Below, piece by piece: positions 4,413-56,409 of a DNA stretch of 64,000 nucleotides. How positions within the stretch are numbered: position 1 is the first letter of the stretch; each line of letters opens with the position of its first letter. The stretch comes from an uncultured Roseicyclus sp. (GTDB lineage: Bacteria; Pseudomonadota; Alphaproteobacteria; Rhodobacterales; Rhodobacteraceae), in assembly GCA_947494975.1 (NCBI GenBank), contig CANLXA010000003.1:434001-498000 (forward strand), in the 5' to 3' direction. The translations under genes were made by a program, and so were the position numbers. A model generated the notes under the pieces. The model was not told the origin of the DNA. It did not search any database and saw only the letters and a list, made by a program, of their open reading frames with translations.

Positions 4413-5711
4413 ATGAGGCTGTTTCCACTGCTTACCGCAGCGCTTGTTTGCGTTGCGCTTTATTTTGTAATTCTTGATCGTGCGACGCTTGTCGATTTCG
4501 CCAGCCGGTTTGTGCCGGAGCCGTCGAATGCCCCGACGGAGCCCGCAGCGGTCGAGGAAATGCCAGCCGACGTGGCCGCCGCCGCTGACCCCAATGATGA
4601 TCGGGTCCATGTCGTCGTGCGCCGGTCCGAGGCGCAATTGGCCGAAAACGCCGTGCAATTGCGCGGCCGGACCGAGGCCCTGCGCCTGGTGGACGTGGCG
4701 TCCGAGACATCCGGCCGGATCATCTCGACCCCCATTCGCGCGGGCGCCTTCGTTGAAGAAGGCCAGGTGATGTGCGAGATCGATGCCGGAACCAGCCAGA
4801 CCGCCTTGGAAGAGGCGCAGGCCCGCCTGGCCGAGGCCGAGGCCCGCGTGCCCGAAGCCGAAGCCAGGCTGCCCGAAGCCCGCGCGATGCTGGCGCAGGC
4901 CCGGGCGCAGCTCTCTTCGGCCGAGATCGACGGCAACGCCGCCGCCCGCCTGAACGAATCCGGGTTCGGTTCCGACACCCGCGCTGCCTCGGCCGCGGCC
5001 GGTGTGGCCGCAGCCCAGGCCGGTGTGGAAAGCGCCCAGGCCGGTGTGCAGGCCGCCGATGCAGGCGTACAATCGGCCCTGGCCGGGGTGCGCGCCGCCG
5101 AGGCCGCCGTGACCCGCGCCGAGGAGGACATCAACCGCCTTACCATCCACGCACCGTTTTCGGGCCTCCTGGAAACCGACACGGCCGAGCTTGGCTCCCT
5201 GATGCAACCGGGTGCGGTTTGCGCCACGATCATTCAGCTTGATCCGATCAAGCTGGTGGGTTTCGTGCCCGAAGCGCAGATCGACCGGGTGGAACTGGGC
5301 GCATTGGCCGGCGCGCAGCTGGCCAGCGGTCAGCAGGCGCAAGGCGAAGTGACGTTCCTCAGCCGGTCGGCCGATGAAAGCACCCGCACGTTCCGTGTGG
5401 AGATCACCGTCGACAATTCGGATCTGGCCATCCGCGACGGCCAGACCGCCGACATCCTGATCCAGACCGCCGGGACACCGGCGCATCTTCTGCCTTCCTC
5501 TGCCCTGACCCTGAATGATGAGGGCATCCTGGGTCTGCGGATTGTCGTCGATGGTGTGGTCGAATTCGTGCCCGTCCAACTGATCCGGGACACTGTGCGC
5601 GGCGTCTGGGTGACGGGCCTGCCCGAGCAGGCCGATGTGATCACCGTCGGGCAGGAATTCGTGACTGCCGGGGTGGAGGTGCGCACGACGCTTGAGGAGC
5701 TGACCCAATGA
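4413..5711 (+). CDS. RND efflux pump periplasmic adaptor (membrane fusion protein)
   Basis: A 432-residue periplasmic adaptor that should join the inner-membrane RND permease to an outer-membrane channel. It has an N-terminal hydrophobic anchor (about residues 3-22), a biotinyl-lipoyl half around VASETSGRI, a long alpha-hairpin made of Ala/Glu heptads (about residues 130-237), the returning lipoyl half with IHAPFSG, then the beta-barrel and membrane-proximal domains. The hairpin is highly repetitive, with tandem heptads of the AQAGV type. Its stop codon overlaps the permease ATG (ATGA), so the two are translationally coupled. No outer-membrane channel gene lies in the window. Confidence 0.93.
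   Translation: MRLFPLLTAALVCVALYFVILDRATLVDFASRFVPEPSNAPTEPAAVEEMPADVAAAADPNDDRVHVVVRRSEAQLAENAVQLRGRTEALRLVDVASETSGRIISTPIRAGAFVEEGQVMCEIDAGTSQTALEEAQARLAEAEARVPEAEARLPEARAMLAQARAQLSSAEIDGNAAARLNESGFGSDTRAASAAAGVAAAQAGVESAQAGVQAADAGVQSALAGVRAAEAAVTRAEEDINRLTIHAPFSGLLETDTAELGSLMQPGAVCATIIQLDPIKLVGFVPEAQIDRVELGALAGAQLASGQQAQGEVTFLSRSADESTRTFRVEITVDNSDLAIRDGQTADILIQTAGTPAHLLPSSALTLNDEGILGLRIVVDGVVEFVPVQLIRDTVRGVWVTGLPEQADVITVGQEFVTAGVEVRTTLEELTQ
5001..5120 (+). repeat. 21-base tandem repeat coding for coiled-coil heptads
   Basis: Degenerate tandem 21-base units inside the adaptor gene encode successive heptads such as AQAGVES, AQAGVQA, ADAGVQS and ALAGVRA. DNA units such as gcccaggccggtgtg recur. 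The repeat extends the alpha-hairpin of the adaptor and could vary in copy number between strains. Confidence 0.7.
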
Positions 5712-8700
5712 CCGGCTTGATCGATTGGGCCGCCTCACGCGCCCGGATGGTCGTCGCCTTCGTGATCCTGTCGCTGGTGGCAGGCACGGCGGCCTATGTC
5801 GGTCTGCCCAAGGAGGGTGAGCCGGATATCGACATTCCGGGCCTCTTCGTGTCGGTCCCCTTCCCCGGGATTTCCGCGGTGGACAGCGAACGCCTGCTGA
5901 TCCGGCCCATGGAAGCCGAGTTTCAGGACCTCGATGGATTGCTGTCGATCAACTCGACCGCCTCCGAAGGCTATGCCGGGATTTTCCTGGAATTCGAATT
6001 CGGCTGGGACAAGGGCGCGATCATCGCCGATGTCCGCGACGCGATGGGCCGGGCCGAGACCCAGTTCCCGTCGGGTGCCGAGAGCTTTTCGATCAACGAA
6101 ATCAACTTCTCGGAATTCCCGATCATCATCGTTGCGCTCAGCGGCGATGCGCCGGAACGCACGCTGATCCGCCTGGCCAATGAGATGCAGGCTGATCTGG
6201 AAGCGCTGTCTCCGGTGCTGGAGGCGGGTCTTGCGGGCACACGGGACGAGATGCTTGAGGTGATTCTCGATCCCCTTGCCCTGGAAGCCTATGACGTCAC
6301 CGCCGCCGACCTGATCAATGCCGTGGTCAACAACAACCAGTTGATTGCAGCCGGTGAAGTGGAAACCGAAAGCGGCTCCATCTCCATCACGATCCCGTCG
6401 AGCTTCGACAATGCGCAGGACGTCTACAACCTTGCCATCACCGTGAATGGCGACCGGGTGGTGACCCTTGGCGAACTGGCCGAGATCCGCCTGACCTATC
6501 AGGACCGCGCCGGGACCGCGCGTTTCAATGGCGAGACGACCGTGGCGTTGCAGGTGGTCAAACGGCAGGGCTTCAACATCATCGATACCGTGGCACTGAT
6601 CCGCGAAGAGGTTGAACGCGTGCAAGAGACGTGGCCGGAAGAGCTCCGGTCCTCGGTGCACGTCGAAACCACGCTCGATCAATCTGTGCAGGTGGACAGC
6701 ATGGTGCGGCAGCTGGAAGGCTCCGTGCTCACGGCCATTGCGCTTGTGATGATCGTGGTCCTGGCGGCCTTGGGCACCCGCTCCGCCCTGCTGGTCGGCT
6801 TCGCGATCCCCACCTCCTTCCTTCTGTGCTTCATCCTTCTGGGCGTGATGGGGATCACGATCTCGAACATCGTGATGTTCGGCCTGATCCTCGCAGTGGG
6901 GATGCTGGTGGATGGCGCGATCGTGGTTGTGGAATATGCCGACCGCCGCCTGAAAGAGGGCGCGCGCCCGATGCAGGCCTATGTGGACGCGGCCAAACGC
7001 ATGTTCTGGCCGATCGTCAGTTCCACTGCGACGACGCTTTGCGCCTTCCTGCCGATGCTGTTCTGGCCCGGCGTGCCCGGCGAATTCATGGGCATGTTGC
7101 CGGTGACACTGATCTTCGTTCTGTCGGCCTCGCTGATCGTGGCGCTGATCTACCTGCCGGTTCTGGGCGGCGTGGCCGCGCGGTTCAGCCGGATCATCGA
7201 CCGCCTCGCGGCCGGGCTGACGGCACTGGTGCCGTGGTTCGCGGCGCGGGCCGTTCTGGCCGTGGGCGTGGCCTACCTGATGTTCATGACTGCGCTGCAG
7301 GTTGTGCGCCCGGGCGTCCTTTTCTCGCTGCCCGAAACGATGTCGCCCCTGATGCAAACCGCAATCAGCGGCCTCTTGTTCGTGTTGGTCTGCGTCGCGA
7401 TGTCGGTCGTGATTTCGACGGTGCAGACGAAGCAGCGTGAAAAGGCCGTGCAGGCCGGGTATCGGCGCACCTGGTTTGGCTGGGTCATCCACGGCCTGAC
7501 GGGCAATCCGTTCATGCCGCTTGTGGCCATCGCGGTGGTATCCAGCTTCGTGATCTACACCTTTACCTATTTCGGCGAAAACTCGAACGGTGTGGAATTC
7601 TTCGTCGCGACGGAGCCGGAAAACGCCATCGTCTATGTGCGGGCCCGGGGCAACCTGTCGCTGGAGGAGCAGGACGCGCTGGTCCGGCAGGTGGAAGAGA
7701 TCGTGCTGGAGCATGAGGGCGTGCGCGACGTGTTCGCCTTTGCCGGCGATGGCGGTCTCAATAACAATACCGGCGGGGCCGCCGCGCCCTCCGATACGAT
7801 CGGGCAGGTTCAGATCGATCTTGAGCCATGGGGCGAACGGGCCGATGGCGACATCATCCTTGAGCGCCTGCAGACCCGCCTCGACCGGATCCCCGGCATC
7901 CAGACCGAGATCTTCTCGGCCTCTACCGGCCCTGCCGAGGGCAAACCAATCTCGCTCCGCCTGAGCGGGGACAATTGGGAGGAGTTGCAAGAGGCGACCG
8001 CCATCGTCCGCGCCCATTACGAGGATCTCGACGGGCTGATCCTGGTGGAAGATACCCTGCCCCTCCCGGGCATCGACTGGCAGATCAACGTGGATGTGGA
8101 GGCCGCGGGGCGCTTTGGCGCGGATGTGGCAACCGTGGGCGCGATGGTGCAACTGGTCACGCGTGGTATCCTTCTGGACACGATGCGGGTGCCCACGTCC
8201 GACGAGGAGATCGACATTCGCGTCCGCTTCCCCGAAGAGGCCCGCGTTCTGTCCACACTCGACAGCCTGCGGGTTCGCACGCGAGACGGCCTAGTGCCCC
8301 TGTCTAACTTCGTGAGCTATGAGCCGACGCCACAGCTGGCAACCATCGACCGCATCGACCAGAGCCGGTTCTTCATGGTGAAGGCCGATGTCCTGTCAGG
8401 ACTTGTGGGCGTTTCGGATGGCGATGGCGAAAGCGTTGCCATCCTGCGCGATATGGCGGAGGTCGCCGTCGGCGATCAGGCGGATCTGAGCTTCGAGGAT
8501 GTCGAGTATCAGCTCTTCGTGGCCTATGATGGCCAGACCGCCGACAGCGTGCTGGAGGGGTTGCAAGACGGGTCCTTCTCGACCAGCCCAGTCAATCCGA
8601 ACGAACGGATCGAGCGGATCACCGAATGGCTGGACGCCGAAGACCCTCTGCCCGCCTCGGTCAGTTGGGAATGGGCAGGCGATCAGGAGGATCAGGCTGA

Positions 8701-44048: not shown

Positions 44049-45059
44049 ATGAAACATTTGACCACCACCGCCATCGGCGCGGTGCTGTCCCTGTCGTTTG
44101 TCGGCGAAGCTCTGGCCACCGAATGGAACGTCTCGCTCTGGGGGCAGCGGCGCGCCTTCACCGAGCATGTGGAGTTCCTGGCCGAAGCGCTGGCCGAACG
44201 CACGGATGGCGAGTTTACCCTGAACATTTCTTATGGCGGCCTGTCCAACAACCGCGAGAATCTCGACGGGATCTCTATCGGCGCGTTCGAGATGGCGCAG
44301 TTCTGCGCCGGCTATCACCGCGACAAGAACCGCGCGATCACCGTGCTGGAGCTGCCGTTTCTGGGCGTGAGCACCCTCGAAGAGGAAGTCGCCGTCTCCC
44401 ACGCGATCTACGATCACCCCGCCGTGGCCGAAGAGATGGCCCAGTGGAACGCACGGATGCTGATGACGTCGCCGATGCCGCAATACAACCTGGTCGGCAC
44501 CGGCGATCCGCGCGACACGATTGAGGAGATGGAAGGCATGCGGGTTCGCGCCACGGGCGGCTTGGGTGAGCTCTTCGCCTCCGTCGGCGGTGTGCCGACC
44601 TCGGTGACCTCGTCGGAGGCCTATCAGGCGCTCGAAGGCGGCACCGTCGACACCGTGGCGTTTGCGCAGCATGCCCATCTCAGCTTCCGCACCATCGACA
44701 TTGCCGATTGGTGGACCGAGAACCTCAACCCCGGCACCGTGAACTGCCCGGTGGTGGTGAACATCGATGCCTATGAGGCGCTGAGCGATGAGGAGCGCGC
44801 GGCGCTGGACGGCGCCGTCGAGGATTCCATTGCGCATTATCTGGCCAATTACGCCGAGTTGATCGAGCGCTGGGATGCGGTGCTGGAAGAACGCGGGGTG
44901 GAGCGCGTGACGGTGCCCGAGGAAACCCTCGCGGCACTCGCCGAAAACGCCGCCCCGATCCACCAGGCGTGGATCGACGACATGGCCTCCCAGGGCCTGC
45001 CGGCACAGGAGCTCTACGATCTGGTCCAGTCGACCCTGGCCGAGCATCGCGGCGAATGA
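44049..45059 (+). CDS. dctP: TRAP transporter solute-binding protein
   Basis: A 336-residue periplasmic receptor. A signal peptide (cleavage near ALA-TEW, about residue 23) precedes the DctP fold with EGMRVRATGGLGELFASVGG, including the conserved Arg that salt-bridges a substrate carboxylate, and the later NPGTVNCPVVVN. The ligand is probably an organic acid but cannot be named. GGAGGACATC precedes the ATG. It is the first gene of the dctPQM operon; the 273-base spacer to the divergent puuD contains TTTCG-AC-CGAAA (43808-43819). Confidence 0.92.
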   Translation: MKHLTTTAIGAVLSLSFVGEALATEWNVSLWGQRRAFTEHVEFLAEALAERTDGEFTLNISYGGLSNNRENLDGISIGAFEMAQFCAGYHRDKNRAITVLELPFLGVSTLEEEVAVSHAIYDHPAVAEEMAQWNARMLMTSPMPQYNLVGTGDPRDTIEEMEGMRVRATGGLGELFASVGGVPTSVTSSEAYQALEGGTVDTVAFAQHAHLSFRTIDIADWWTENLNPGTVNCPVVVNIDAYEALSDEERAALDGAVEDSIAHYLANYAELIERWDAVLEERGVERVTVPEETLAALAENAAPIHQAWIDDMASQGLPAQELYDLVQSTLAEHRGE

Positions 45060-45068
45060 TCTGAAACA

Positions 45069-45099
45069 CGAGGCCTCCGCGCTCCGGGCGGAGGCCTCG
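45069..45099 (+). promoter_or_regulatory. Intercistronic hairpin covering the dctQ ribosome site
   Basis: A perfect 12-base stem (CGAGGCCTCCGC with GCGGAGGCCTCG, loop GCTCCGG) between dctP and dctQ, not followed by a T-run. Its 3' arm contains GGAGG (45090-45094), the only Shine-Dalgarno-like sequence before dctQ. It should both protect dctP mRNA and limit dctQM translation, giving an excess of binding protein. Confidence 0.65.
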
Positions 45100-45107
45100 A
45101 CCTTATC

Positions 45108-45746
45108 ATGGCCATATCCTCAAACGTCCTGACCGATGACAGCGCCGTCTCCCGCACGGATCGCTTTCTGCTCTGGTTCGAAGCCCGCCTGAACCTTCTG
45201 GGCGGTATCACCATCATCGCGCTTGTGCTGATGGCGGTCTGGCACGTCGTGGGCCGCAAACTCTTCAACGCGCCGGTCTATGGCTACGTGGACTGGATCG
45301 AACAATTCATGGTGGTCTTCGCGTTTTTCGGGCTCAGCTATTGCCAGCGCGAAGGCGGACATATCCGCATGGATATCATCGTGATGCGCCTCAAGGGCCG
45401 CGCGCTGTGGTTCGCGGAATGGTTGTCGACGATCTTCATGTTGATCCTGACCATCGCGCTGATCTACGGCGCCTGGCAGCATTTCGACCGCAGCTTCGAC
45501 CTGACCCGCCCGTTCTTCTCCCGCGACAGCTCCATCGATATCGCCCTGCCGCTCTGGCCTGCGAAACTGATCGTGCCGGTGGCCTTCGCCATCCTCGCGG
45601 CGCGCCTGATGATCCAATTGGTGATCTATACCCGCGCGCTGATTTCCGGCGAGGACCGCCCCGTCGGCGTGCCGCTGCCCGAGGATCCCATGGATGTCGC
45701 CGCGCGCGAGGCGCAAACCGTCTCCGGGCGCGCCGAGGATCAATGA
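45108..45746 (+). CDS. dctQ: TRAP transporter small membrane subunit
   Basis: A 212-residue DctQ subunit with four membrane helices. The second is preceded by the family-typical WIEQFMVVFAFFGLSYCQREGGHIRMD, and the last helix lies near residues 148-172. It couples the binding protein to the DctM transporter. The N terminus is about 20 residues longer than in short homologues. The stop overlaps the start of an uncertain 58-codon frame, and dctM follows after 165 bases, a wider gap than usual. Confidence 0.92.
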   Translation: MAISSNVLTDDSAVSRTDRFLLWFEARLNLLGGITIIALVLMAVWHVVGRKLFNAPVYGYVDWIEQFMVVFAFFGLSYCQREGGHIRMDIIVMRLKGRALWFAEWLSTIFMLILTIALIYGAWQHFDRSFDLTRPFFSRDSSIDIALPLWPAKLIVPVAFAILAARLMIQLVIYTRALISGEDRPVGVPLPEDPMDVAAREAQTVSGRAEDQ

Positions 45747-45919
45747 TGCGCTTTGAGTTTTTTTACCAAGATGAAACAGGAAGGGCCGCGCCGGATCAGG
45801 CCAAGAGGGCCGAAGCGCGCGCAATTTTAATCAAATTGTCCCATCTTTGTTCCCCAAATATGCATTCCGACGCCGCCATCCGCGCGAACGGTCACAGATT
45901 GGGGCGGCCCCGTGGATAA
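45743..45919 (+). CDS. Uncertain small ORF between dctQ and dctM
   Basis: A 58-codon frame starts with ATGATG overlapping the dctQ stop and ends in TAA overlapping the GTG of dctM. The product (MMRFEFFYQDETGR at its start) matches nothing I know and is mostly hydrophilic. Codon use is AT-richer than its neighbours. It could be a leader whose translation couples dctM, or simply spacer. Confidence 0.25.
   Translation: MMRFEFFYQDETGRAAPDQAKRAEARAILIKLSHLCSPNMHSDAAIRANGHRLGRPRG
45836..45864 (+). promoter_or_regulatory. Possible internal promoter before dctM
   Basis: TTGTCC (45836-45841), a 17-base spacer and TATGCA (45859-45864) in the AT-richer gap ahead of dctM. Agreement with sigma70 boxes is partial, so this is only a candidate for separate transcription of dctM. 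Confidence 0.25.
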
Positions 45920-47348
45920 TGTCATCGACATGCGCGCCCTGTTGGAGGGGGTGGATATCTTCAACGTCTCGCTGTGGCTGTGCGGGCTGTTGCTGGTTCT
46001 GGTGCTGATCGGCGTGCGCGTGGCCTTTGCGGCGGCCTTTGTGGGGATCCTGGGCCTCTGCATCTTTTTCATGGCGCGGCAGGGCTTTGATCGGGGTCTC
46101 GCAACAGCGCTTCTGACCGCCGGTCAGGTGCCGCATTCCAAAAGTTCCGGCTATGCGCTCAGCCTGATCCCGACCTTCATCCTGATCGGCTATCTCGCCT
46201 ATTACGCGGGCCTGACGAAGGCGCTCTTCGAGGCGGCGAAGCGCTGGGTCGGCTGGTTGCCCGGTGGGCTGGCCGTCTCCACGGTCTTTGCGACGGCGGG
46301 CTTTGCGGCGGTCTCCGGTGCCTCCGTGGCGACCTCCGCCGTCTTCGCGCGGATCGCCATCCCCGAAATGCTGAAGGTGGGCTACGACAAGGCCTTCGCC
46401 GCCGGTGTGGTGGCGGCAGGCGGCACGCTCGCTTCCCTGATCCCGCCCTCGGCCATCCTGGTGATCTACGCGATCATCGTCGAGGAATCGGTGGGCAAGC
46501 TGCTTCTCGCGGGTTTCCTGCCGGGTTTCGTCTCCGCCCTGATCTATGCGGGCCTTGTCACCGGCATGGCCGCGGCCAAACCGTCCCTCGGGCCGCCGGT
46601 GCGCGGCTTCACCTGGGGGGAGCGGTTCTCTTCCCTGCCCGGCACCTTCCCGATCCTCTTTGTGATCTTCATCATCATCTTCTCGATCTATTATCGCGGC
46701 GATGACGGCGCCTGGGCCACGCCCACCGAAGCCGGGGCGCTTGGGGCCTTTGTCGTCTTCGCCATGGCGATCTTCCGGGGCATGAAGTGGGATCAGCTCA
46801 AGACCGCCCTGATGGAAGCCGCAAAGCTGACCGCGATGATCTTCGCGATGATCTGGGGTGTGCTGATCTTCGTGCGGTTCCTGGGTTATGCGGACCTGCC
46901 GGACACCTTCGCCACCTTCATCGGCGGCCTCGACTACTCGCCTTACGTGATCTTGCTCTGCATCTTGCTGGTCTATGTGGTTCTGGGCATGTTCATGGAT
47001 GCGATCGGGATGCTGATCCTGACGCTGCCAGTGGCCTTTCCGGCGGTGATCGCGCTCAATGGCGGGCCCGACGTCACGCGGGAGGCCAGTGCCTTTGGCA
47101 TGAATGCCGAGGAATGCGCGATCTGGTTCGGGATCATCGTGGTGAAGATGGCGGAGCTGTGCCTGATCACGCCACCCATCGGCCTCAACTGCTTTGTCGT
47201 GGCCGGCGTCGCCAAGGATACCGGTCTGCCCATCGGCGTGCAGGATGTCTTCAAAGGGGCCACGCCTTTCTTTGCCGCGGATGTCGCCACCATCGCGGTG
47301 CTCATCGCCTTCCCGGGTATCGTCCTGTGGCTGCCCTCCCTGGTCTGA
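45912..47348 (+). CDS. dctM: TRAP transporter large membrane subunit
   Basis: A 478-residue sodium-coupled transporter subunit with twelve or more membrane helices. The family pattern GFAAVSGASVATSAVFARIAIPEM and GGTLASLIPPSAILVIY is present, as is the second scaffold repeat with TPPIGLNCFVVAGV. The first start is GTG at 45912; an ATG at 45930 is equally possible and would remove six residues. It completes the operon that imports an unidentified, probably acidic, substrate. Confidence 0.94.
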   Translation: MDNVIDMRALLEGVDIFNVSLWLCGLLLVLVLIGVRVAFAAAFVGILGLCIFFMARQGFDRGLATALLTAGQVPHSKSSGYALSLIPTFILIGYLAYYAGLTKALFEAAKRWVGWLPGGLAVSTVFATAGFAAVSGASVATSAVFARIAIPEMLKVGYDKAFAAGVVAAGGTLASLIPPSAILVIYAIIVEESVGKLLLAGFLPGFVSALIYAGLVTGMAAAKPSLGPPVRGFTWGERFSSLPGTFPILFVIFIIIFSIYYRGDDGAWATPTEAGALGAFVVFAMAIFRGMKWDQLKTALMEAAKLTAMIFAMIWGVLIFVRFLGYADLPDTFATFIGGLDYSPYVILLCILLVYVVLGMFMDAIGMLILTLPVAFPAVIALNGGPDVTREASAFGMNAEECAIWFGIIVVKMAELCLITPPIGLNCFVVAGVAKDTGLPIGVQDVFKGATPFFAADVATIAVLIAFPGIVLWLPSLV

Positions 47349-47464: not shown

Positions 47465-48661
47465 ATGAAAAAGTTTTTGCTGGCTTCGGCCGCAACTCTT
47501 GCCTTGACCGGTGTTGCCGCAGCTGACGGCCACCAGGGCGACGTCACGCTTGGCGTGATTCTCGGCTTCACGGGCCCCATTGAATCGATCACACCCGCCA
47601 TGGGTGACGGCGCGGAACTGGCGATGGCCGAAGTCACCGAGAGTGGTTTGCTCTTCGGCGGCGCCTCCGTCACCTCCGTCCGCGCGGACTCCACCTGCGT
47701 TGACTCGTCCGCCGCCCAGGCCGCGGCCGAGCGTCTGATCACGTCGGATGGTGTGCACGGCATCGTGGGCGCGGATTGCTCCGGCGTGACCGGCTCCATC
47801 CTCGCCAACGTCGCCGTGCCCAACGGCATGGTCATGATCTCGCCCTCGGCCACCTCGCCCGGCCTGTCGACCGCTGAAGACAACGGGTTGTTCTTCCGCA
47901 CCGCACCGTCCGACGCCCGTCAGGGTGTGGTGATGGCCGAGATCATCATGGAACGCGGCATCGACACCGTCGCGCTGACCTACACCAACAACGATTATGG
48001 CCAAGGTCTCGCCGATGCGTTCACGGCGGCCTTCGAAGAAGCCGGTGGTACCGTCACGCTCTCCGCCGCCCACGAAGATGGTCGCGCGGATTACTCCGCT
48101 GAAGTCGGCGCACTGGCATCCGCCGGTGGTGACGCACTGGTTGTGGCGGGTTACGTGGACCAGGGCGGCTCCGGCGTGATCCAGGCCTCGCTCGATACCG
48201 GCGCGTTCGACACGTTCGTCTTCCCCGACGGCATGGTCTCGCAGGCGTTGGTCGACAATTTCGGGTCCGACATCGACGGCTCGTTCGGCCAGAACCCCGG
48301 CACCGACAGCGAAGGCGCGGGCATCTATCAGGCGATGGCGGAAGAAGCAGGCTTCGACGGCACCTCGCCGTTCTCGGCGGAAAGCTATGACGCCGCGGCA
48401 CTGATCATGCTGTCCATGGCGGCCGCGGGCTCTCGCAATCCCGCCGATTACATGGGCGAGGTCATGAACGTGGCCAATGCACCGGGCACCGAGATCCTGC
48501 CGGGTCAGCTTGGCATGGCGCTTGAGATGATCGCCAATGGCGAAGACATCGACTATGTCGGCGCCTCCGCGGTGGAACTCATCGGTGGCGGCGAAAGCGC
48601 CGGCAATTACCGGGAGATCCAGATCGAAGGCGGTGAACTGGTTGTGGCCGGCTACCGCTAA
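47465..48661 (+). CDS. Liv-type ABC transporter substrate-binding protein
   Basis: A 398-residue periplasmic receptor of the LivK/amide-binding group. The signal peptide ends near VAAADG (about residue 21). The mature protein opens VTLGVILGFTGPIESI, with GIVGADCSGVTGSI and TYTNNDYGQGLADAF in the two lobes. Such receptors bind branched-chain amino acids, amides, urea or aromatic acids; the ligand is not readable here. GGGAGATAAAGA precedes the ATG. A strong hairpin terminator lies between it and the ATPase gene, so it should be made in excess. Confidence 0.92.
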   Translation: MKKFLLASAATLALTGVAAADGHQGDVTLGVILGFTGPIESITPAMGDGAELAMAEVTESGLLFGGASVTSVRADSTCVDSSAAQAAAERLITSDGVHGIVGADCSGVTGSILANVAVPNGMVMISPSATSPGLSTAEDNGLFFRTAPSDARQGVVMAEIIMERGIDTVALTYTNNDYGQGLADAFTAAFEEAGGTVTLSAAHEDGRADYSAEVGALASAGGDALVVAGYVDQGGSGVIQASLDTGAFDTFVFPDGMVSQALVDNFGSDIDGSFGQNPGTDSEGAGIYQAMAEEAGFDGTSPFSAESYDAAALIMLSMAAAGSRNPADYMGEVMNVANAPGTEILPGQLGMALEMIANGEDIDYVGASAVELIGGGESAGNYREIQIEGGELVVAGYR

Positions 48662-48732: not shown

Positions 48733-49521
48733 ATGATCGCCGTCCATGACATCCACAAGCATTTCGGTGGCTTTCACGCCGTGGATGGTGCGACCCTGAC
48801 GATCGAGACCGGTTCGATCACCGGGCTGATCGGCCCCAACGGCGCGGGCAAGACGACGCTGTTCAATGTCGTGGCCGGTGTCCTGCCGCCGACCAGCGGC
48901 ACGGTGGTGATGGATGGTGAGGACATCACCGGCCTCAAGCCGCACCAGCTGTTCGACAAGGGCCTGCTGCGCACCTTCCAGATCGCCCATGAGTTTTCCT
49001 CCATGACATGCCGCGAGAACCTGATGATGGTGCCCGGCGAACAGACCGGGGAGACGCTCTGGAACACCTGGTTCGGGCGCAAACGCATCGCGGACGAGGA
49101 ACGCGCGCTGCGCGCCAAGGCCGACGAGGTGCTGGAATTCCTGACCGTCGAGCATCTGGCCGACCATCCGGCGGGCGCGATTTCCGGCGGGCAGAAGAAG
49201 CTGCTGGAACTGGGCCGCACCATGATGGTCGACGCCAAGATCGTGTTTCTCGATGAGGTCGGCGCGGGCGTGAACCGCACGCTTCTCAACACGATCGGCG
49301 ACGCGATCCTGCGCCTGAATACCGAGCGCGGCTACACGTTTTGCGTGATTGAACACGACATGGATTTCATCGGGCGTCTGTGTGATCCGGTGATCTGCAT
49401 GGCCGAAGGCAAGGTTCTGGCCCAGGGCACGCTGGCGGAGATCAAGGCCAATGACGCCGTCATCGAGGCCTATCTGGGCACCGGCCTGAAGAACAAGGAC
49501 AAGCTGGAGGAGCCCGCGTGA
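48733..49521 (+). CDS. livG: Liv-type ABC ATPase, LivG-like
   Basis: A 262-residue ATPase. Walker A is GPNGAGKTTL (about residues 35-44); the signature is ISGGQKK, and Walker B reads KIVFLDEVGAGVN, where the usual DEP is DEV. The N terminus IAVHDIHKHFGGFHAVDGA and the closing EAYLGTG are typical of LivG. I use the ATG at 48733 with AAGGGGAT upstream. Its stop overlaps the GTG of the next gene. It powers the importer together with the LivF-like ATPase. Confidence 0.92.
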   Translation: MIAVHDIHKHFGGFHAVDGATLTIETGSITGLIGPNGAGKTTLFNVVAGVLPPTSGTVVMDGEDITGLKPHQLFDKGLLRTFQIAHEFSSMTCRENLMMVPGEQTGETLWNTWFGRKRIADEERALRAKADEVLEFLTVEHLADHPAGAISGGQKKLLELGRTMMVDAKIVFLDEVGAGVNRTLLNTIGDAILRLNTERGYTFCVIEHDMDFIGRLCDPVICMAEGKVLAQGTLAEIKANDAVIEAYLGTGLKNKDKLEEPA

Positions 49522-50096
49522 TCCGCGCCGCGCTGCTGGCCCTGACGCTTGCCGCGCCCGCCATCGCTCAGACCGCGCCCGACCAACCGAAACCCGAGGA
49601 CATCACCGCCGCCACGCCCGCCCCCGCCGGGCCGCGCGATTGCGCCCTTGTGGAGGGTCCGTTCCGGTTCTGCGGCACCTCCCCCCAATTCACCCTGGCC
49701 CCGCAGGCCGACAACGCCGACGTGACGGCCTACTACGTCACCCCCGAGGCCATTCAAGCCGTCGCGATCATCGAAACCGCAGGCCGGGCCGACGGGCTCA
49801 CCATCGACGCGCTACAGGCCGAAGCCCTTGAAATCCTGTCGGTTTCCGCAGGCATCCCGGCCGGTGATATCCCGATTCTGGGCCGCGCCTCCGTCACCAT
49901 CGACGGGCAGGATCATCCGAATTTCGTCTATTTCGGCAATGTCGACGGGGTCGGCATCGTCTATTCCAACTCCATCGTGCTGCTCGACGGGGCCGTGGCG
50001 CAATTCGTCACCCTCGATATCGGGGCCACAACCTATACCTCGCGCCACCGCGCGCTGCACGACCGCTTCGTGTCCAATGTTCAGGTGAGCTTATGA
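49518..50096 (+). CDS. Secreted protein of unknown function between livG and livF
   Basis: A 192-residue exported protein: signal peptide (MIRAALLALTLAAPAIA, cleavage near AIAQ), a Pro-rich spacer, then a globular domain with two cysteines close together (DCALVEGPFRFCG). Later segments such as ILGRASVTIDGQDHPNFVYFG and GVGIVYSNSIVLLDG suggest a beta-rich fold. No family recognised. It starts with GTG overlapping the livG stop and ends in ATGA overlap with livF, so it is tightly built into the transporter operon. Its cysteine spacing differs from the six-gene family downstream. Confidence 0.8.
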   Translation: MIRAALLALTLAAPAIAQTAPDQPKPEDITAATPAPAGPRDCALVEGPFRFCGTSPQFTLAPQADNADVTAYYVTPEAIQAVAIIETAGRADGLTIDALQAEALEILSVSAGIPAGDIPILGRASVTIDGQDHPNFVYFGNVDGVGIVYSNSIVLLDGAVAQFVTLDIGATTYTSRHRALHDRFVSNVQVSL

Positions 50097-50926
50097 CCGA
50101 CACAAACCCCTACCAGAACGACCGCGGCAACAAGGACATGTCGATCACCAATCCCCGCCCCGGCAGCACGGCCGACCCGGTCCGCCCGGGCGGCAAGGCC
50201 AAGGTGGCCGAGGCCGCTGACGCCTTCCTGATCGGCGAGGCGATGACGGGCGGCTACGGCTCGGGCGCGGATATCCTGCACAGCTGCACGATTGCCGTGA
50301 ACCCCGGCGAGATCGCGGTGATCGTGGGGCCCAACGGCGCGGGCAAATCCACCGCGATGAAGGCCGTCTTCGGGATGCTGAACCTGCGCGAAGGCCGCGT
50401 GGTGCTGGATGGCGAGGATATCTCGGCGCTCACGCCCCAGGCCCGCGTCGGCAAGGGCATGGGGTTTGTGCCGCAGACCTCGAACATCTTCACCTCCATG
50501 ACCGTGGAAGAAAACCTCGAAATGGGCGCGTTCATCCGCCGCGACGATATCCGCGCCACGATGGAGCAGATCTATGACCTGTTCCCGATCCTGCGCGACA
50601 AGCGCAAACAGGCGGCAGGTGAGCTGTCGGGCGGCCAGCGCCAGCAGGTCGCCGTGGGCCGCGCGCTGATGACCCAGCCCAAGGTCCTGATGCTCGATGA
50701 GCCCACGGCGGGCGTCTCCCCCATCGTGATGGACGAGCTGTTTGACAGGATCATCGAAGTGTCACGAACCGGTATTCCGATTTTGATGGTTGAACAAAAC
50801 GCGCGGCAGGCCCTTGAGATCGCCGATAAGGGCTATGTCCTCGTGCAGGGGCGCAACGCCTATTCCGGCACCGGCAAGGAGCTTCTGGCCGATCCGGAGG
50901 TGCGCAAATCCTTCCTCGGCGGGTGA
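50093..50926 (+). CDS. livF: Liv-type ABC ATPase, LivF-like
   Basis: A 277-residue ATPase with Walker A GPNGAGKSTAM (about residue 78), signature ELSGGQRQQVAVG and Walker B VLMLDEPTAGVSP. The conserved core starts around residue 45. The first 45 residues form an extra polar leader (MTDTNPYQNDRGNKDMSITN at its start) not usual in LivF. Internal ATG codons could shorten it, but the first ATG overlaps the previous stop. Next in the operon is the six-gene secreted family. Confidence 0.92.
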   Translation: MTDTNPYQNDRGNKDMSITNPRPGSTADPVRPGGKAKVAEAADAFLIGEAMTGGYGSGADILHSCTIAVNPGEIAVIVGPNGAGKSTAMKAVFGMLNLREGRVVLDGEDISALTPQARVGKGMGFVPQTSNIFTSMTVEENLEMGAFIRRDDIRATMEQIYDLFPILRDKRKQAAGELSGGQRQQVAVGRALMTQPKVLMLDEPTAGVSPIVMDELFDRIIEVSRTGIPILMVEQNARQALEIADKGYVLVQGRNAYSGTGKELLADPEVRKSFLGG

Positions 50927-50930
50927 CGGG

Positions 50931-51371
50931 ATGATGCGGGCCGTCCTCTCCATATCCCCGCCCATGGCGCTGTGCGCGATCTTGGGAAGCGCGGCCTTCG
51001 CCGCCATCGGAGATGAGGGTGACGGCCCAAGGCCCTTCGAGGCAGAATGCACCATCGTCGATACCTGCCGCATCGAGGGCGGCTGCGCCGATCTGCCCGC
51101 ACCGGGTGAGTTGCTTCTGCGCTTCGACGGTACGGACACCTCTCTCGGGCAAAGCGAAGCCGATCTGGAGCCGATCGACCGTTACGCCGATATCGAAGCC
51201 GTCCATCCCCTCGCCCCCATCGACACGCGCCGCTCGCTTCTCGTGGATCTGCCGCCCGAAGGGCCCGCGCGCCGATTTGCCCTTTTCGTGCAGCCCGCCA
51301 CCCCCAATGGCGCGGATCCGATCTTGCAGCGCCGCTATTTCGTGATGAGCTGTTGGGACATCCCGCAATGA
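50931..51371 (+). CDS. Four-Cys secreted family, copy 1
   Basis: A 146-residue secreted protein of unknown function, first of six paralogues. After a signal peptide (core about residues 8-24, cleavage near AFA) the mature protein carries ECTIVDTCRIEGGC, the C-X5-C-X5-C pattern, and a fourth cysteine six residues from the end (MSCWDIPQ). The rest looks beta-rich with many acidic residues. It starts 4 bases after livF and overlaps the next copy (ATGA). Two disulfides are plausible in the periplasm. Confidence 0.8.
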   Translation: MMRAVLSISPPMALCAILGSAAFAAIGDEGDGPRPFEAECTIVDTCRIEGGCADLPAPGELLLRFDGTDTSLGQSEADLEPIDRYADIEAVHPLAPIDTRRSLLVDLPPEGPARRFALFVQPATPNGADPILQRRYFVMSCWDIPQ

Positions 51372-51733
51372 GGAAGGCGGCACTTCTGGTGATGATGCTG
51401 CCCGGTGCGGCACAGGCCACGGGGCTGAATTGCACCTTCACCACGATTTGTGCGCCCCAGACCGATTGCCAGACCAACGCTGGCGTGCCGTTCACCTTCG
51501 ACGTCATCAGCGGCACGCTCAGCCTCATGGGCGCTGACGGCCCGATCATGGGCACGCCCTTGTCGAACACGACACCCCCGGCTCTCTCGGTCCTCTTCGA
51601 CACGGTGGAAAACAGCACGATCCTTCTGAGCGTCTCGCCATCCGGTGAGGCCGCGATGACGCAACACGACGTCGCGCCCGGGGACAGGATCCAGGCGATC
51701 TCCTATTTCGGCACCTGTGAGCCGGGCACATGA
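51368..51733 (+). CDS. Four-Cys secreted family, copy 2
   Basis: A 121-residue secreted protein. A signal peptide of about 17 residues ends near AQA, then NCTFTTICAPQTDC gives C-X5-C-X5-C, and the C terminus is FGTCEPGT. It is the most compact intact copy together with copy 6. The middle is rich in Ser/Thr and small residues. Start and stop overlap the neighbouring copies by ATGA. No enzyme motif is visible. Confidence 0.8.
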   Translation: MRKAALLVMMLPGAAQATGLNCTFTTICAPQTDCQTNAGVPFTFDVISGTLSLMGADGPIMGTPLSNTTPPALSVLFDTVENSTILLSVSPSGEAAMTQHDVAPGDRIQAISYFGTCEPGT

Positions 51734-52088
51734 AGATCCTGCTGGCCGCCGTCCTGCTCCTCCCCGCCACTGCGCGCGCCCATGTGCCGATCTGCGTCTT
51801 CACGCCCGAAGCCACGCCGCGGGCACTTCCTGCGCACCGGTCGAGATCACCATCGACACCCATCACGGCCCCGACACGCCCCATTTCGCCGATGGCGGCA
51901 CCACCGCCCCGATCACCGCGATCCCCGATGAAACCGTGCCTGCCCCGAGTTCCGTCACCCTGGGCCACGGCGACCGCGACATCATCACCCTGTCCAACGG
52001 CCTTGATGCCATCCACCCGCGCCATTTCACGCTGGAGGGCCACTCCGCCGCGATCAGTGCCCCCGGGCGCCGTACCAGCCTGTCCTGA
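51730..52088 (+). pseudogene. Four-Cys secreted family, copy 3, frameshifted
   Basis: Starts with a good signal peptide (MKILLAAVLLLPATARA) and the first family cysteine (PICVFTPE). After codon 27 the family-like sequence continues only in the -1 frame (AGTSCAPVEITID and on to the stop at 52088). Adding one base before the GC at 51811 would make a cysteine codon and restore C-X5-C-X6-C. The position expected for the fourth cysteine reads Arg (PGRRTSLS). A frameshift plus a lost cysteine suggests decay, although a sequencing error at 51811 cannot be excluded. Confidence 0.65.
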
Positions 52089-52103
52089 CCCAAGGAGGTT
52101 CCC

Positions 52104-52508
52104 ATGCGCGTGCCGCTTCTCGCTGCCCTCGCCATCGCAACGCCGCTTCTCGCTTCGGCCCAGGACGCGCCGGTGAACTGGACGTGCCAGCTCAACATCC
52201 TCTGCCCCGATGTCGGCGCCTGCCGCGATTGGGATCAGCGGATCACGATTGTCGAGGGCGATGACGGCTGGCGCGTGACGTGGAACGCGGATCTGCCATC
52301 GGACTATGAGTTGATCGCCGATTACCGGCCTCCCGCCGACGCCGTCGAACAGGTCCGCGTACGCAGCCTCCTGTTCCGCAACGCGCAAACGCAGGCAAGC
52401 CAGATGATCACCTTCGACAGCACCGGCGATGTCGTGGTGACGGGCCATCAGCCGCAGGCGGGCACGCGCGTGGTCTCGGGCCTCGGCAGGTGCGAGGTGG
52501 CGGAATGA
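52104..52508 (+). CDS. Four-Cys secreted family, copy 4
   Basis: A 134-residue secreted protein. The signal peptide ends near ASA-QDA (about residue 19); the motif is WTCQLNILCPDVGAC and the closing cysteine is in GLGRCEVAE. It has the best ribosome site of the cluster, AAGGAGGT 6 bases before the ATG, and is the only copy not overlapping its upstream neighbour. It may therefore restart translation after the broken copy 3. Function unknown. Confidence 0.82.
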   Translation: MRVPLLAALAIATPLLASAQDAPVNWTCQLNILCPDVGACRDWDQRITIVEGDDGWRVTWNADLPSDYELIADYRPPADAVEQVRVRSLLFRNAQTQASQMITFDSTGDVVVTGHQPQAGTRVVSGLGRCEVAE

Positions 52509-52918
52509 GGGCGCTTCTTGCCATCGCCCTGATGGCCGGGCCCGCCATGGCCGCATCGGCACAGGACGCGCTGGCCACGCGGATGACCTGCACCCTGGTG
52601 GAGATCTGCGTCGCCGATGACACCTGCCGCCCGTTTCCCTCCGGCCCCGACTTTACCCTGATGTTCGACGGGCAGGATTGGCTGTGGGACCCGGCGGCGA
52701 ACTGGGGCGGTTTCCCGGTCCTTCTGGCCCGGGATGAGGACGCGGCCCTGGCCCGTCATCTGGCCGACCCGTCTCTCGGCCTGGCTCTCATCCCCGCCGC
52801 GGCGGAGGCCGCGGACGGTGCCGTCACGCTGGATGCCATCCGCCTTGGTCGGCCGCCCGAACCCGCCCTGTCGAACCAGTGGATGCGCAATCATTGCCGG
52901 GCGGCGGCTGCGTCATGA
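52505..52918 (+). CDS. Four-Cys secreted family, copy 5
   Basis: A 137-residue secreted protein. After the signal peptide (cleavage near ASA) the motif is MTCTLVEICVADDTC, with the fourth cysteine near the end in RNHCRAAA. The segment FTLMFDGQDWLWD after the motif parallels LLLRFDGTD in copy 1, which supports common descent. ATGA overlaps on both sides. Function unknown. Confidence 0.8.
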   Translation: MRALLAIALMAGPAMAASAQDALATRMTCTLVEICVADDTCRPFPSGPDFTLMFDGQDWLWDPAANWGGFPVLLARDEDAALARHLADPSLGLALIPAAAEAADGAVTLDAIRLGRPPEPALSNQWMRNHCRAAAAS

Positions 52919-53271
52919 TCCGCATCGCCCTTGCCCTTGCCGTCATCGGCCCGCCCGCCGCCGCCGAGCCCTGGACCTGCCAGATGACCGTGCGCTGCCA
53001 GAATGTCGATTGTGACGCCATCGACGATACCTATGGTATCATCGCCGCCGACCATGAGGGGCAATTGTTCCTCACCACCCCCGCAGGCGACCGCCCCGTG
53101 CAAAGGCTGAGCCCCCAGGGCCACCTGCCCGCCGCCTATGCCGGGGCCAGTGAAGCCGCCATCGGGGAGCTTCTGACGATCCTCGACGATGGCCGCGCGC
53201 TGCTGTCGGTCCACGGCCATGACGGCCCGGCGCGCACCACCACCCTTTTCGGCACATGTGCACCGCTATGA
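52915..53271 (+). CDS. Four-Cys secreted family, copy 6
   Basis: A 118-residue secreted protein. The signal peptide ends near AAA-EPW; the motif is WTCQMTVRCQNVDC, with one residue fewer between the second and third cysteine. The C terminus LFGTCAPL is nearly that of copy 2 (YFGTCEPGT). WTCQ also opens the motif of copy 4. It is the last copy; 100 bases without a gene separate it from livH. Confidence 0.8.
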   Translation: MIRIALALAVIGPPAAAEPWTCQMTVRCQNVDCDAIDDTYGIIAADHEGQLFLTTPAGDRPVQRLSPQGHLPAAYAGASEAAIGELLTILDDGRALLSVHGHDGPARTTTLFGTCAPL

Positions 53272-53371: not shown

Positions 53372-54382
53372 GTGGACGTCCTGAACGCCTTCGTTACGCT
53401 GGCGAATTTCGTCATCATTCCGGCCACCGCCTATGGGGCGCAACTGGCGCTCGGCGCGCTGGGGGTCACGCTGATCTACGGCATCTTGCGGTTTTCCAAC
53501 TTCGCCCATGGCGACACGATGGCGTTTGGCACCATGGTCACCATCTTCGCCACCTGGGGCCTGCAGGCGGCGGGCATCACCTTCGGGATCCTGCCCACGG
53601 CGCTTCTGGCCCTGCCGCTGGGGATCGCCGCCACCGCCCTTCTGGTGATCGGCACGGACCGCACGATCTACCGCTTCTACCGCCAGCAAAAGGCCAAGCC
53701 GGTGATCTTCGTGATCGCGTCGCTCGGCGTGATGTTCATCATGAACGGCATCGTGCGGTTCTTCATCGGCGTCGATGACCAGCGCTTTGCCGATGGCGAA
53801 CGGTTCATCATCAGCGCGCGCACCTTCCGCGACATGACGGGCCTCGACGAGGGGCTCGCCTTCCGCACCACCCAGGGCATCACCATCGTGGTGGCGATGA
53901 TCGCCGTCATCCTGCTCTTCTGGTTCCTCAACCGCACCCGCACCGGCAAATCGATGCGCGCCTTTTCCGATAACGAGGATCTGGCGCTGCTCTCGGGCAT
54001 CAACCCCGAACGGGTCGTCCTGATCACCTGGATCATCGTGGCGGCCCTGGCCACCACCGCAGGCGTGCTCTACGGCCTCGACAAGAGCTTCAAGCCCTTC
54101 ACCTATTTCCAGCTCCTCCTGCCGATCTTCGCCTCGGCCATCGTGGGCGGCCTCGGCAACCCGCTCGGCGCCATCCTGGGCGGCTTCCTCATCGCGTTTT
54201 CCGAGGTCGGCGTCACCTACGCCTTCCGCAAGGTCGTGGGCTATCTGGGGCCGGAGGAGTGGCAGCCCGACGGCCTCCTGCAACTGCTCAGCACCGATTA
54301 CAAATTCGCCGTCTCCTTCGGCATCCTGCTGATCGTGCTTCTCTTCAAACCCACCGGCATCATGAAGGGGAAATCGGTATGA
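53372..54382 (+). CDS. livH: Liv-type ABC permease, LivH-like
   Basis: A 336-residue inner-membrane permease with about eight helices. The pattern GVTLIYGILRFSNFAHGDTMAFG in the N-terminal third and the late IVGGLGNPLGAILGGFLIAFSE are typical of LivH. GTG at 53372 is the start, with GGGGAGAG 7 bases upstream; no ATG lies near the homology start. Its stop overlaps the LivM start (ATGA). With LivM it forms the channel of the importer. Confidence 0.9.
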   Translation: MDVLNAFVTLANFVIIPATAYGAQLALGALGVTLIYGILRFSNFAHGDTMAFGTMVTIFATWGLQAAGITFGILPTALLALPLGIAATALLVIGTDRTIYRFYRQQKAKPVIFVIASLGVMFIMNGIVRFFIGVDDQRFADGERFIISARTFRDMTGLDEGLAFRTTQGITIVVAMIAVILLFWFLNRTRTGKSMRAFSDNEDLALLSGINPERVVLITWIIVAALATTAGVLYGLDKSFKPFTYFQLLLPIFASAIVGGLGNPLGAILGGFLIAFSEVGVTYAFRKVVGYLGPEEWQPDGLLQLLSTDYKFAVSFGILLIVLLFKPTGIMKGKSV

Positions 54383-55689
54383 CCCGCGGCTTCGATCCCA
54401 AGATCCTGATGCTCTTCGGCCTCGTCGCCATCCTCTTCGTGGGCACCGGCTTCGTGCAATCGTGGAACACCGCACTCACCATCTTCAACATGGGCCTGGT
54501 CAGCGCGATCATGGCGCTTGGCGTGAACATGCAGTGGGGCTATGCGGGCCTCTTCAACGTGGGCGTGATGGGCTTCGTGGCTCTGGGTGGCCTCGCCACC
54601 GTCCTGGTCTCGGTCGAACCGGTGCCCGAAGCGTGGAGCGCGGGCGGCCTGCAGGTGATCCTCGGCCTCGTCCTCGGCGCGCTCACCATTGTCGGCGCCA
54701 TCCTGCTCTGGAATGCCATGCCCAAAGGCCGCCTCAGGGGCCTTGTGATGCTCGTCGTGCTGCTGGCGGGCTTCACCCTCTTCCGCCGTGTCTTCGATGT
54801 CGGGGTCGATGCCGTCGAATCCATTGATCCCGCCTCCACCGGGTTCCTCGGTGGCCTCGGCCTGCCGATCCTTCTGGCCTGGCCCGTGGGCGGCTTGCTG
54901 GCCGCAGGCGCCGCCTGGATCATCGGTAAGACGGCCCTGGGCCTGCGCTCCGATTACCTCGCCATCGCCACCCTCGGCATCGCCGAGATCATCATCGCAG
55001 TCCTGAAGAACGAGGACTGGCTCGCCCGCGGCGTCAAGAACGTCACCGGCATCGACCGCCCCGTCCCCTACGAGGTCGACCTGCAGGAAAGCGAACGTTT
55101 TCTGGGCCTCGTCAGCAATATCGGCGCCGATCCCGTCACCGCCTCCACGATCACGGTAAAACTCCTCTACGCCGCGCTGTTCATCCTCGTGCTCGGCCTC
55201 CTGATCTGGCTCAGCGAAAAGGCGTGGAACTCTCCCTGGGGCCGCATGATGCGCGCGATCCGCGATAATGAGGTCTCCGCCGCCGCCATGGGCAAGGACG
55301 TCAAATCGCGCCACTTGCAGATCTTCATCCTCGGCTCCGCCGTCTGCGGCGTGGCGGGCGCGATGATGACAACCCTCGACAGCCAGCTGGTGCCCGGCAC
55401 CTACCAGCCGCTGCGCTTCACCTTCCTGATCTGGGTGATGGTGATCGTCGGCGGGTCGGGCAACAATTGGGGCGCGGTTCTGGGCGGCTTCCTGATCTGG
55501 TGGCTCTGGGTGCAGGTCGAACCCCTTGGCCTCCTGCTGATGCAGGGCCTCACCGCGGGTATGGCCGACGGCAACTGGCTCCGCGAACACCTGCTCGATT
55601 CAGCGGCCCATATGCGCCTGCTGACCATGGGGATGATCCTGCTCCTGGTCCTGCGCTTCAGCCCGCGTGGTTTGATCCCGGAACGGTAG
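54379..55689 (+). CDS. livM: Liv-type ABC permease, LivM-like, long form
   Basis: A 436-residue permease, about 100 residues longer than usual LivM. The family pattern ALGVNMQWGYAGLFNVGVMGF is near residue 50, and the second half has IATLGIAEII and VVGGSGNNWGA-like VIVGGSGNNWGAVLGGFLIWW. The extra length is mainly between residues 104 and 184, with additional hydrophobic segments and a loop around VGVDAVESIDP. Last gene of the operon; a GC hairpin TGCCCCC/GGGGGCA (55698-55719) without a T-run follows the stop. Confidence 0.9.
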   Translation: MTRGFDPKILMLFGLVAILFVGTGFVQSWNTALTIFNMGLVSAIMALGVNMQWGYAGLFNVGVMGFVALGGLATVLVSVEPVPEAWSAGGLQVILGLVLGALTIVGAILLWNAMPKGRLRGLVMLVVLLAGFTLFRRVFDVGVDAVESIDPASTGFLGGLGLPILLAWPVGGLLAAGAAWIIGKTALGLRSDYLAIATLGIAEIIIAVLKNEDWLARGVKNVTGIDRPVPYEVDLQESERFLGLVSNIGADPVTASTITVKLLYAALFILVLGLLIWLSEKAWNSPWGRMMRAIRDNEVSAAAMGKDVKSRHLQIFILGSAVCGVAGAMMTTLDSQLVPGTYQPLRFTFLIWVMVIVGGSGNNWGAVLGGFLIWWLWVQVEPLGLLLMQGLTAGMADGNWLREHLLDSAAHMRLLTMGMILLLVLRFSPRGLIPER

Positions 55690-55761: not shown

Positions 55762-56409
55762 TCAGGCGTGCTTGTAGCGTCGTGCGACGCCAAAGACGCC
55801 AAGCGCCCCCAGAAGCAGCGGCAAACCGGCAGGCAGCGGCACTGGGGCGACGTCGTCGCTTGTTGCCGAGATGGTGATGTCACTGGAGTTGTATCCGGCG
55901 TCCACATTGCGCCAATTGGTTCTGAAAGACGGGAACGTGCCCAAGAAATCGCTTGCGTTTATGCTGTCCCCGACGGCACGGTCATCAAAGCTACCCCCCG
56001 ACAGTCCAGAAGAACTCGTCTGAATACCGGGCAAAAAGATACCTCTGCCATTTCCGTTGAAAAACCCGTCGAAATTGCCATTGTTCGGGAAAAAGGATAT
56101 GCCGTTCGCCTCCTGATACGTCCCGTTGGTGGCCGCGACGCTGGCACCGGAGACGGTAAACAGGTGCGACGTCGCGGCGACGGCTGGCTGCCCGAAGCGG
56201 TCGATATAGGTGTCGTCGCCGTCGAAGATGGCGATGAAGTTGATCAACGCCCCGTCCAGCCCGGCCGCATCCGGGCCGAAGGTGGTATCATGGGTCAGCG
56301 TGAAGTTCATCTCGACCGTGATCGTCGTCGCGTGTGCGCCCGTCGCCAGCCCCATCGTCAATAGGCAAACGGCCATCGCCGCGCCAAACGTTCTTTTGAT
56401 AAATGTCAT
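55762..56409 (-). CDS. VPLPA-CTERM exported protein
   Basis: A 215-residue exported protein. The signal peptide is cleaved near AHA (about residue 27). The C terminus is a sorting tail: VPLPAGLPLLLGALG, a membrane helix, then basic ARRYKHA, the VPLPA variant of PEP-CTERM. Such proteins are processed by an exosortase-type enzyme in the inner membrane and often end in extracellular matrix. The mature part is rich in Asn, Gly, Ser and Thr, with no catalytic motif. No exosortase gene is in the window. Confidence 0.85.
   Translation of the reverse strand: MTFIKRTFGAAMAVCLLTMGLATGAHATTITVEMNFTLTHDTTFGPDAAGLDGALINFIAIFDGDDTYIDRFGQPAVAATSHLFTVSGASVAATNGTYQEANGISFFPNNGNFDGFFNGNGRGIFLPGIQTSSSGLSGGSFDDRAVGDSINASDFLGTFPSFRTNWRNVDAGYNSSDITISATSDDVAPVPLPAGLPLLLGALGVFGVARRYKHA

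Follow-up and report, generated by a model that had tools for sequence, protein, structure and literature searches.

The window analysed here is a 64,000-nucleotide stretch of contig CANLXA010000003.1 (positions 434,001 to 498,000) from an uncultured Roseicyclus sp. It carries a complete liv-type ATP-binding cassette (ABC) importer, with a binding-protein gene and the genes we take to be livG, livF, livH and livM in one operon, all on the + strand. Between livF and livH lie six small + strand genes, five intact and one frameshifted, which encode a family of predicted exported proteins marked by four cysteines. These genes, with their E-values against a profile built from proteins outside the window, are as follows.

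50931 (or 50934) to 51371, + strand: copy 1, putative four-cysteine exported family, E 9e-4
51368 to 51733, + strand: copy 2, putative four-cysteine exported family, E 3e-13
51730 to 52088, + strand: copy 3, broken by a frameshift; the open reading frame (ORF) of its C-terminal piece, E 0.0018
52104 to 52508, + strand: copy 4, the best conserved in the genus, E 2e-13
52505 to 52918, + strand: copy 5, present in part of the genus, E 0.002
52915 to 53271, + strand: copy 6, adjoining livH, E 1e-20; modelled as an eight-stranded barrel

Each of the six genes has a signal-peptide-like start, as judged by eye and by a hydrophobicity score. Copies 1, 2, 4 and 5 contain C-x5-C-x5-C and copy 6 contains C-x5-C-x4-C; the fourth cysteine of the intact copies lies near the C terminus, with 3 to 6 residues after it. 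Copy 1 has an additional cysteine within the signal peptide. Four of the five array-internal junctions are ATGA overlaps, the exception being that between copies 3 and 4, and the array borders are spaced by 4 or 7 nucleotides (livF to copy 1) and 100 nucleotides (copy 6 to livH). A first-pass annotation of this DNA had described six consecutive signal-peptide genes with this cysteine pattern in the five intact ones, and both its coordinates and its pattern are correct. Its statement that all junctions but one are ATGA overlaps holds within the array; the flanking liv junctions do not overlap. Copy 3 is intact in two related loci (L024 and L025). A sequencing error is not the favoured cause of the broken copy 3, since no intact version exists in the nearest relative (L015) either, which has there a 72-residue ORF without cysteines.

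The outside profile was built from 49 four-cysteine proteins found between livF and livH in related loci, described below, excluding L136 (same genus) and L138; none of these proteins is more than 50% identical to any window copy. With this profile, the six window genes rank 1 to 6 of 571 window ORFs, with E-values from 1e-20 to 0.002, and the next ORF has an E-value of 0.096. When the seven nearest loci were removed from the profile (leaving 41 proteins), the same six genes again came first, with E-values from 9e-15 to 0.017 against 0.41 for the next. Of 40,000 shuffles of each mature protein, between 0 and 6 reproduced the cysteine pattern. A chance origin of the pattern is rejected by these shuffles together with the outside-profile ranking. 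Pairwise alignments among copies 2, 4 and 6 give z-scores of 4.4-5.7; pairs with copy 1 or 5 align weakly (z 0.7-3.0), which speaks against the homology of all copies. In the genome of origin (4.55 Mb), a second profile (A8), which includes the window copies, matched only the five intact window genes at E<=1, with all 82 of 82 candidates scored. Taken as sequence comparisons, these results support the six genes being one homologous family, so the tandem homologous family that had been proposed inside a Liv-type operon, alongside livG, livF, livH and livM, was recovered.

No assignment to a known family was obtained. Matches of the window proteins in Pfam and NCBIfam scans were far below the curated cut-offs. 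Scans of 61 relatives gave isolated weak matches of single members, the best with an E-value of 0.038 in Pfam and 0.0086 (CobG) in NCBIfam, and 13 relatives with two cysteines, scanned against Pfam only, likewise gave isolated weak matches of single members. A profile search of PDB sequences returned nothing better than E 0.3. No paper describing such genes was found in a literature search with incomplete coverage of the literature. The predicted family is thus without a Pfam or NCBIfam entry and undescribed in the libraries searched, in agreement with the earlier remark that no family with this pattern in such a context was known to its author.

Within the genus, the order livF, small genes, livH is retained in all 12 relatives compared, and copy 4 is present in all 13 same-genus genomes searched, own genome included. 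A single-sequence search with copy 4 found no match in 88 genomes outside the genus. Recognised intact copies number four per array in six relatives, five in L015, L026 and the window, six in L019, L023 and L024, and nine in L025, where the array (5080-8642) is the largest seen. The closest relatives of copy 6 are the livH-adjoining genes of the nearest other loci (44-49% identity). The four cysteines are invariant inside each aligned genus group (copies 1, 2, 4, 5 and 6). In the A8 alignment they are the only invariant columns, and no other column is nearly invariant. A further paralogue behind livF, c0, has the cysteine pattern and was found in four loci.

L019 6455-6844, minus strand: c0
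L023 5777-6169: c0
L024 5479-5868: c0
L025 about 5519-5908: c0, with an approximate start that touches two junctions only in the copy counts

The ratio of nonsynonymous to synonymous substitution rates (dN/dS, Nei-Gojobori) was calculated for the window and L015, the closest pair. Copies 1, 2, 4 and 6 have values of 0.14, 0.24, 0.19 and 0.06, and the liv genes and the binding-protein gene have values of 0.02-0.07. The value for copy 5, 0.90, comes with a dS of only 0.019 and cannot be judged. Over three close pairs, gene-wide dN/dS is 0.06-0.27 for copies 1, 2, 4 and 6. Over pairs with dS<1.2, at which saturation is likely, copies 1, 2, 4 and 6 have medians of 0.23-0.55 and copy 5 has a median of 0.83 (4 pairs), compared with 0.05-0.13 among the liv genes and the binding-protein gene. 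Based on the close pairs and the medians, the array genes are under lower constraint than the liv genes; they are under purifying selection on average and evolve faster than their neighbours. Of the diversifying or relaxed selection proposed in the first-pass annotation, the relaxed part stands relative to the liv genes, and diversifying selection was not seen in the gene-wide dN/dS of copies 1, 2, 4 and 6.

To describe the distribution beyond the genus, a genus profile of 57 sequences (A7) was run against 248 genomes of the window's family, one per genus. Since part of the candidates was scored in most genomes, the family-, order- and class-wide tallies are lower bounds, the zero outside the family included. 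At least 53 of the 248 genomes match at E<=0.05. Stretches around 44 matches were retrieved from 43 of the 52 other matched genomes, the remainder being G055 (a short fragment) and eight weaker matches. The match lies between livF and livH in 37 of the 44 stretches, between livG and livF in L093, and directly behind livF in L091, where the contig is short and a livH was not found. Five stretches have no liv operon beside the match (L034, L096, L104, L102 and L105), and the matches in L102 and L105 look like chance. Homologues that were mostly scattered single genes had been named beforehand as evidence against the family; they are mostly single genes, yet 37 of 44 sit between livF and livH. 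An order-wide sample gave matches in at least 57 of 195 genomes, all from the window's family, and in a class-wide sample of 289 genomes only the own genome matched. One other genus in the order-wide sample (g292) has 3-5 matches per genome.

A livH ortholog was found in 221 of the 248 family genomes at E<=1e-120, with one match each among the matches listed. The 80 best matches to the window livH were taken as named loci, and 79 were used, L141 being set aside as it lacks livF; because of this choice, the named loci favour close relatives. They belong to the Rhodobacterales and include Roseicyclus, Roseibacterium, Boseongicola, Nioella, Ruegeria, Leisingera, Shimia, Jannaschia, Rhodovulum and others. 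Gap ORFs were classified by script from a signal-like start and the cysteine pattern, with overlapping-frame ties favouring the pattern-bearing ORF. The two-cysteine class was defined by an early and a near-C-terminal cysteine, and its homology to the four-cysteine proteins is not proved. Forty of the 79 gaps hold a four-cysteine exported ORF and nine only a two-cysteine ORF (49 of 79 together), and three longer gaps hold neither. Two of these two-cysteine calls are doubtful, namely L159 (a four-cysteine variant with wide spacing) and L164 (unclear); they are counted among the 49 but scored as lacking the gene on the tree described below. One two-cysteine ORF in L194, which also has a four-cysteine gene, looks like chance. 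Most of the 49 occupied loci have one gene (33), 12 have two and four have three to six. Among 57 gap ORFs with three early cysteines, 45 have x5,x5 and six x5,x4 spacing, although the search pattern allowed wider spacings. A sample of 40 genera, every third of places 31-148 in the livH match list and thus among the matches listed, with the least similar livH outside it, contained 18 with four-cysteine ORFs, seven with two-cysteine ORFs only (25 of 40 together), 13 with a short gap and two with a longer gap and neither.

Collectively, the sequence evidence indicates a real, conserved and putatively exported family tied to one importer operon. Its members are most likely periplasmic accessory proteins of this Liv importer, because of their repeated position, closeness to livH and predicted export. 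How they would act is less certain. One possibility, which we hold tentatively, is that they are protein-binding modulators that dock either on the binding protein or, from the periplasmic side, on LivHM, tuning affinity, gating or stability with no ligand of their own. The stop codon of the last small gene lies -8 to +3 nucleotides from the livH match start in 31 of the 49 loci, suggesting joint production with the permease, and fast divergence with conserved cysteines would fit a co-evolving interface. The A8 alignment, with no invariant or nearly invariant column outside the cysteines, shows no common interface, and one genome discussed below (G136) retains two copies away from liv genes in cis. 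Small accessory proteins acting on a transporter include AcrZ, MgtS and LucB (PMC10710835). Those with a stated length in the consulted part of that source have 55 residues or fewer, and none of the modulators covered there is an exported, disulfide-bonded barrel encoded by an array of several copies (PMC10710835).

The fold of copy 6 was modelled with AlphaFold2 from the mature sequence (103 residues) aligned with 60 other family members. The model has a mean predicted local distance difference test score (pLDDT) of 92.9, a predicted template modelling score (pTM) of 0.85 and eight strands by DSSP, the first two at 5-14 and 17-29 and the last at 92-102. Copy 6 is thus confidently predicted to be a small eight-stranded barrel, with its closure inferred from the model. 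Strand 1 carries both C7 and C13, strand 2 carries C18 and strand 8 carries C100. Read off this strand map, the likely disulfide pairs are C1-C4, because the first and last strands meet on barrel closure, and C2-C3, because these two sit on either side of the tight turn in the first hairpin. About a dozen relatives in the named loci have only the first and last cysteines, in agreement with this pairing; the agreement is partial because the two-cysteine class was picked by those two cysteines. No clear case of losing only C2 or only C3 was seen in the named loci. A cysteine is present within 20 residues of the end in all 78 gap ORFs kept by the script, three unclassified ones included. The model of copy 1 (pLDDT 71.2, pTM 0.64) shows low-confidence partial beta structure, in which the strands lie at the two ends and the central part is uncertain, and a fold search with it gave no useful match. 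The first-pass annotation had proposed a test for one shared fold with two disulfides; copy 6 gives a confident barrel with two likely disulfide pairs, and copy 1 neither supports nor contradicts a shared fold.

The weak best Foldseek matches to copy 6 are largely lipocalins (1epa, 2xst and others), with TM-scores mostly of 0.3-0.5, and also include Cap15 and neisserial surface barrels. Like lipocalins and other calycins, copy 6 is predicted to have eight antiparallel strands closing into a barrel, export and disulfides. It differs from them in its length of only 103 residues, weak TM-scores and the lack of a shared sequence motif seen. Lipocalins carry a G-x-W motif before strand A, and this motif does not appear among the invariant columns of the A8 alignment.

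Because of the barrel class and the diversification of the tandem copies, our first choice, with a probability of about 0.35, is that the mini-barrels capture ligand for the binding protein of the Liv importer. The array would then represent an unnamed family of the window's bacterial family, exported beta mini-barrels of about 100 residues co-produced with a Liv-type ABC importer. The C1-C4 pair would staple the barrel by joining its first and last strands, and C2-C3 would cross-link the first hairpin. The barrels would remain in the periplasm and serve the importer, each capturing a small ligand and handing it over to the single binding protein, and tandem copies may widen or sharpen the range collected by the importer.

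The barrel fold also bears on another explanation, in which these proteins, whether secreted or periplasmic, act as inhibitors or in protection, for instance from lysozyme-like enzymes or proteases, and sit in the operon only for expression. MliC-type bacterial lysozyme inhibitors are, we presume, likewise small periplasmic disulfide-bonded beta-barrels. An arms race would be consistent with the rapid divergence and the changes in copy number, and the copies in G136 are decoupled from the liv operon. We consider this explanation unlikely. The MliC lysozyme-inhibitor family is not among the 13 Pfam families matched by the 61 members at E<=1, nor is any other lysozyme-inhibitor family. In close pairs, copies 1, 2, 4 and 6 all have a gene-wide dN/dS below 0.3, and the operon context of the four-cysteine family is an importer, a recurrent linkage that inhibition would leave unexplained.

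The host operon resembles the livKGFHM importer in its binding protein, two ATPases and two permeases, and its binding protein resembles Leu/Ile/Val-binding proteins. To our knowledge, genes for exported barrels do not occur between livF and livH in the classical liv operon. Its genes and one further small gene are as follows.

47465 to 48661, + strand: Liv-type periplasmic substrate-binding protein gene; nearest solved relatives are Leu/Ile/Val-binding proteins (4n0q, E 1.2e-24)
48733 to 49521, + strand: livG, ABC ATPase, from ORF (the listed ORF starts further upstream), position and synteny
49518 to 50096, + strand: small putatively exported C-x9-C protein of another family than the four-cysteine one, at the livG-livF junction, from ORF and signal-like start
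50093 to 50926, + strand: livF, ABC ATPase, from ORF and synteny
53372 to 54382, + strand: livH, permease, start set by homology; ortholog in 221 of 248 family genomes
54379 to 55689, + strand: livM, permease, from ORF and synteny

Relatives of the C-x9-C protein occupy the livG-livF junction in five of the 12 same-genus relatives (L015 and L022-L025). L024 has two such C-x9-C-like proteins there and L025 three, and L073 also has a small exported C-x9-C-type protein at this junction. In other genera, similar-looking four-cysteine proteins lie between livG and livF in L032 (6361-6822), L078 (5994-6383) and L093 (7956-8372). A tripartite ATP-independent periplasmic (TRAP) transporter, whose genes are presumably dctP, dctQ and dctM-like, lies at 44049-47348, immediately upstream of the liv operon. 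A functional link of the four-cysteine array to it was considered and looks incidental. Among the 12 same-genus stretches, the TRAP transporter is found only in L015 and L022; it is absent from the 2.4-3.3 kb upstream of the binding-protein gene in seven others, and the remaining three show less or nothing there. The only other-genus stretch with a TRAP transporter is L034, the one with stranded copies. Downstream, on the minus strand at 55762-56409, lies a gene for an exported protein with a C terminus that we take to be PEP-CTERM-like VPLPAGLPLLLGALGVFGVARR.

Several observations weigh against the tie to the importer and against ligand capture. The livF-livH gap is below 150 nucleotides, too short for a gene, in 27 of the 79 named loci. 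On a livH tree, quickly made and with 28 of its 78 inner branches open, the presence of the genes requires 20 changes, seven of them forced by well-supported branches. Shuffled presence requires 25.4 changes on average, and 7 of 500 shuffles were as low, so presence is only weakly clustered on the tree and follows livH ancestry weakly at most. The gene is often lost, gained or moved, and the short gaps and the 20 changes show it to be dispensable. These short gaps and many gains or losses, along with the second, different small family at the livG-livF junction, would fit passenger genes, the livF-livH junction merely tolerating extra small genes of lineage-specific and weak function. This is decidedly unlikely given purifying selection on average, a copy 4 kept in all same-genus genomes searched, and the recurrence of one family at this junction in different genera.

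The exception in G136 is informative. In L034, copies 4 and 6 lie at 7150-7569 and 7566-7934 behind a TRAP transporter, between what we take to be dctM and an enoyl-CoA hydratase gene, which are also the genes on either side of the window's liv operon. A complete liv operon of G136 is on another contig (L221), where only a few bases separate livF from livH and no copies are present. Either the liv genes moved, leaving two copies behind, or the assembly hides something. Both G136 copies are intact and so can apparently function with no liv genes in cis, and the link between family and importer is not absolute, as this genome has two copies apart from its liv operon. Apparent relatives in L096 and L104 also lie away from any liv gene, and the c0 paralogue has no obvious signal peptide. 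As for the barrel, Foldseek found no solved structure at E<=0.001 for the copy 6 model (best E 0.0097), and neither a lumen nor a binding residue was identified in the predicted barrel.

Liv importers are widespread amino-acid uptake systems. An apparently exported family absent from Pfam and NCBIfam occupies one liv-operon junction in roughly half of the loci and genera sampled, or about three fifths with the two-cysteine proteins. Tentatively, it may represent a new class of soluble ABC-importer component, in which disulfide-stapled exported mini-barrels encoded next to livH in many genera, in up to nine copies, would each bind their own ligand or gate the binding protein and so form a changeable front-end receptor set. 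Should the barrels work together with the importer, one more soluble component would have to be added to ABC importers; otherwise, a rapidly evolving exported family has remained attached to a single operon for reasons yet unexplained.

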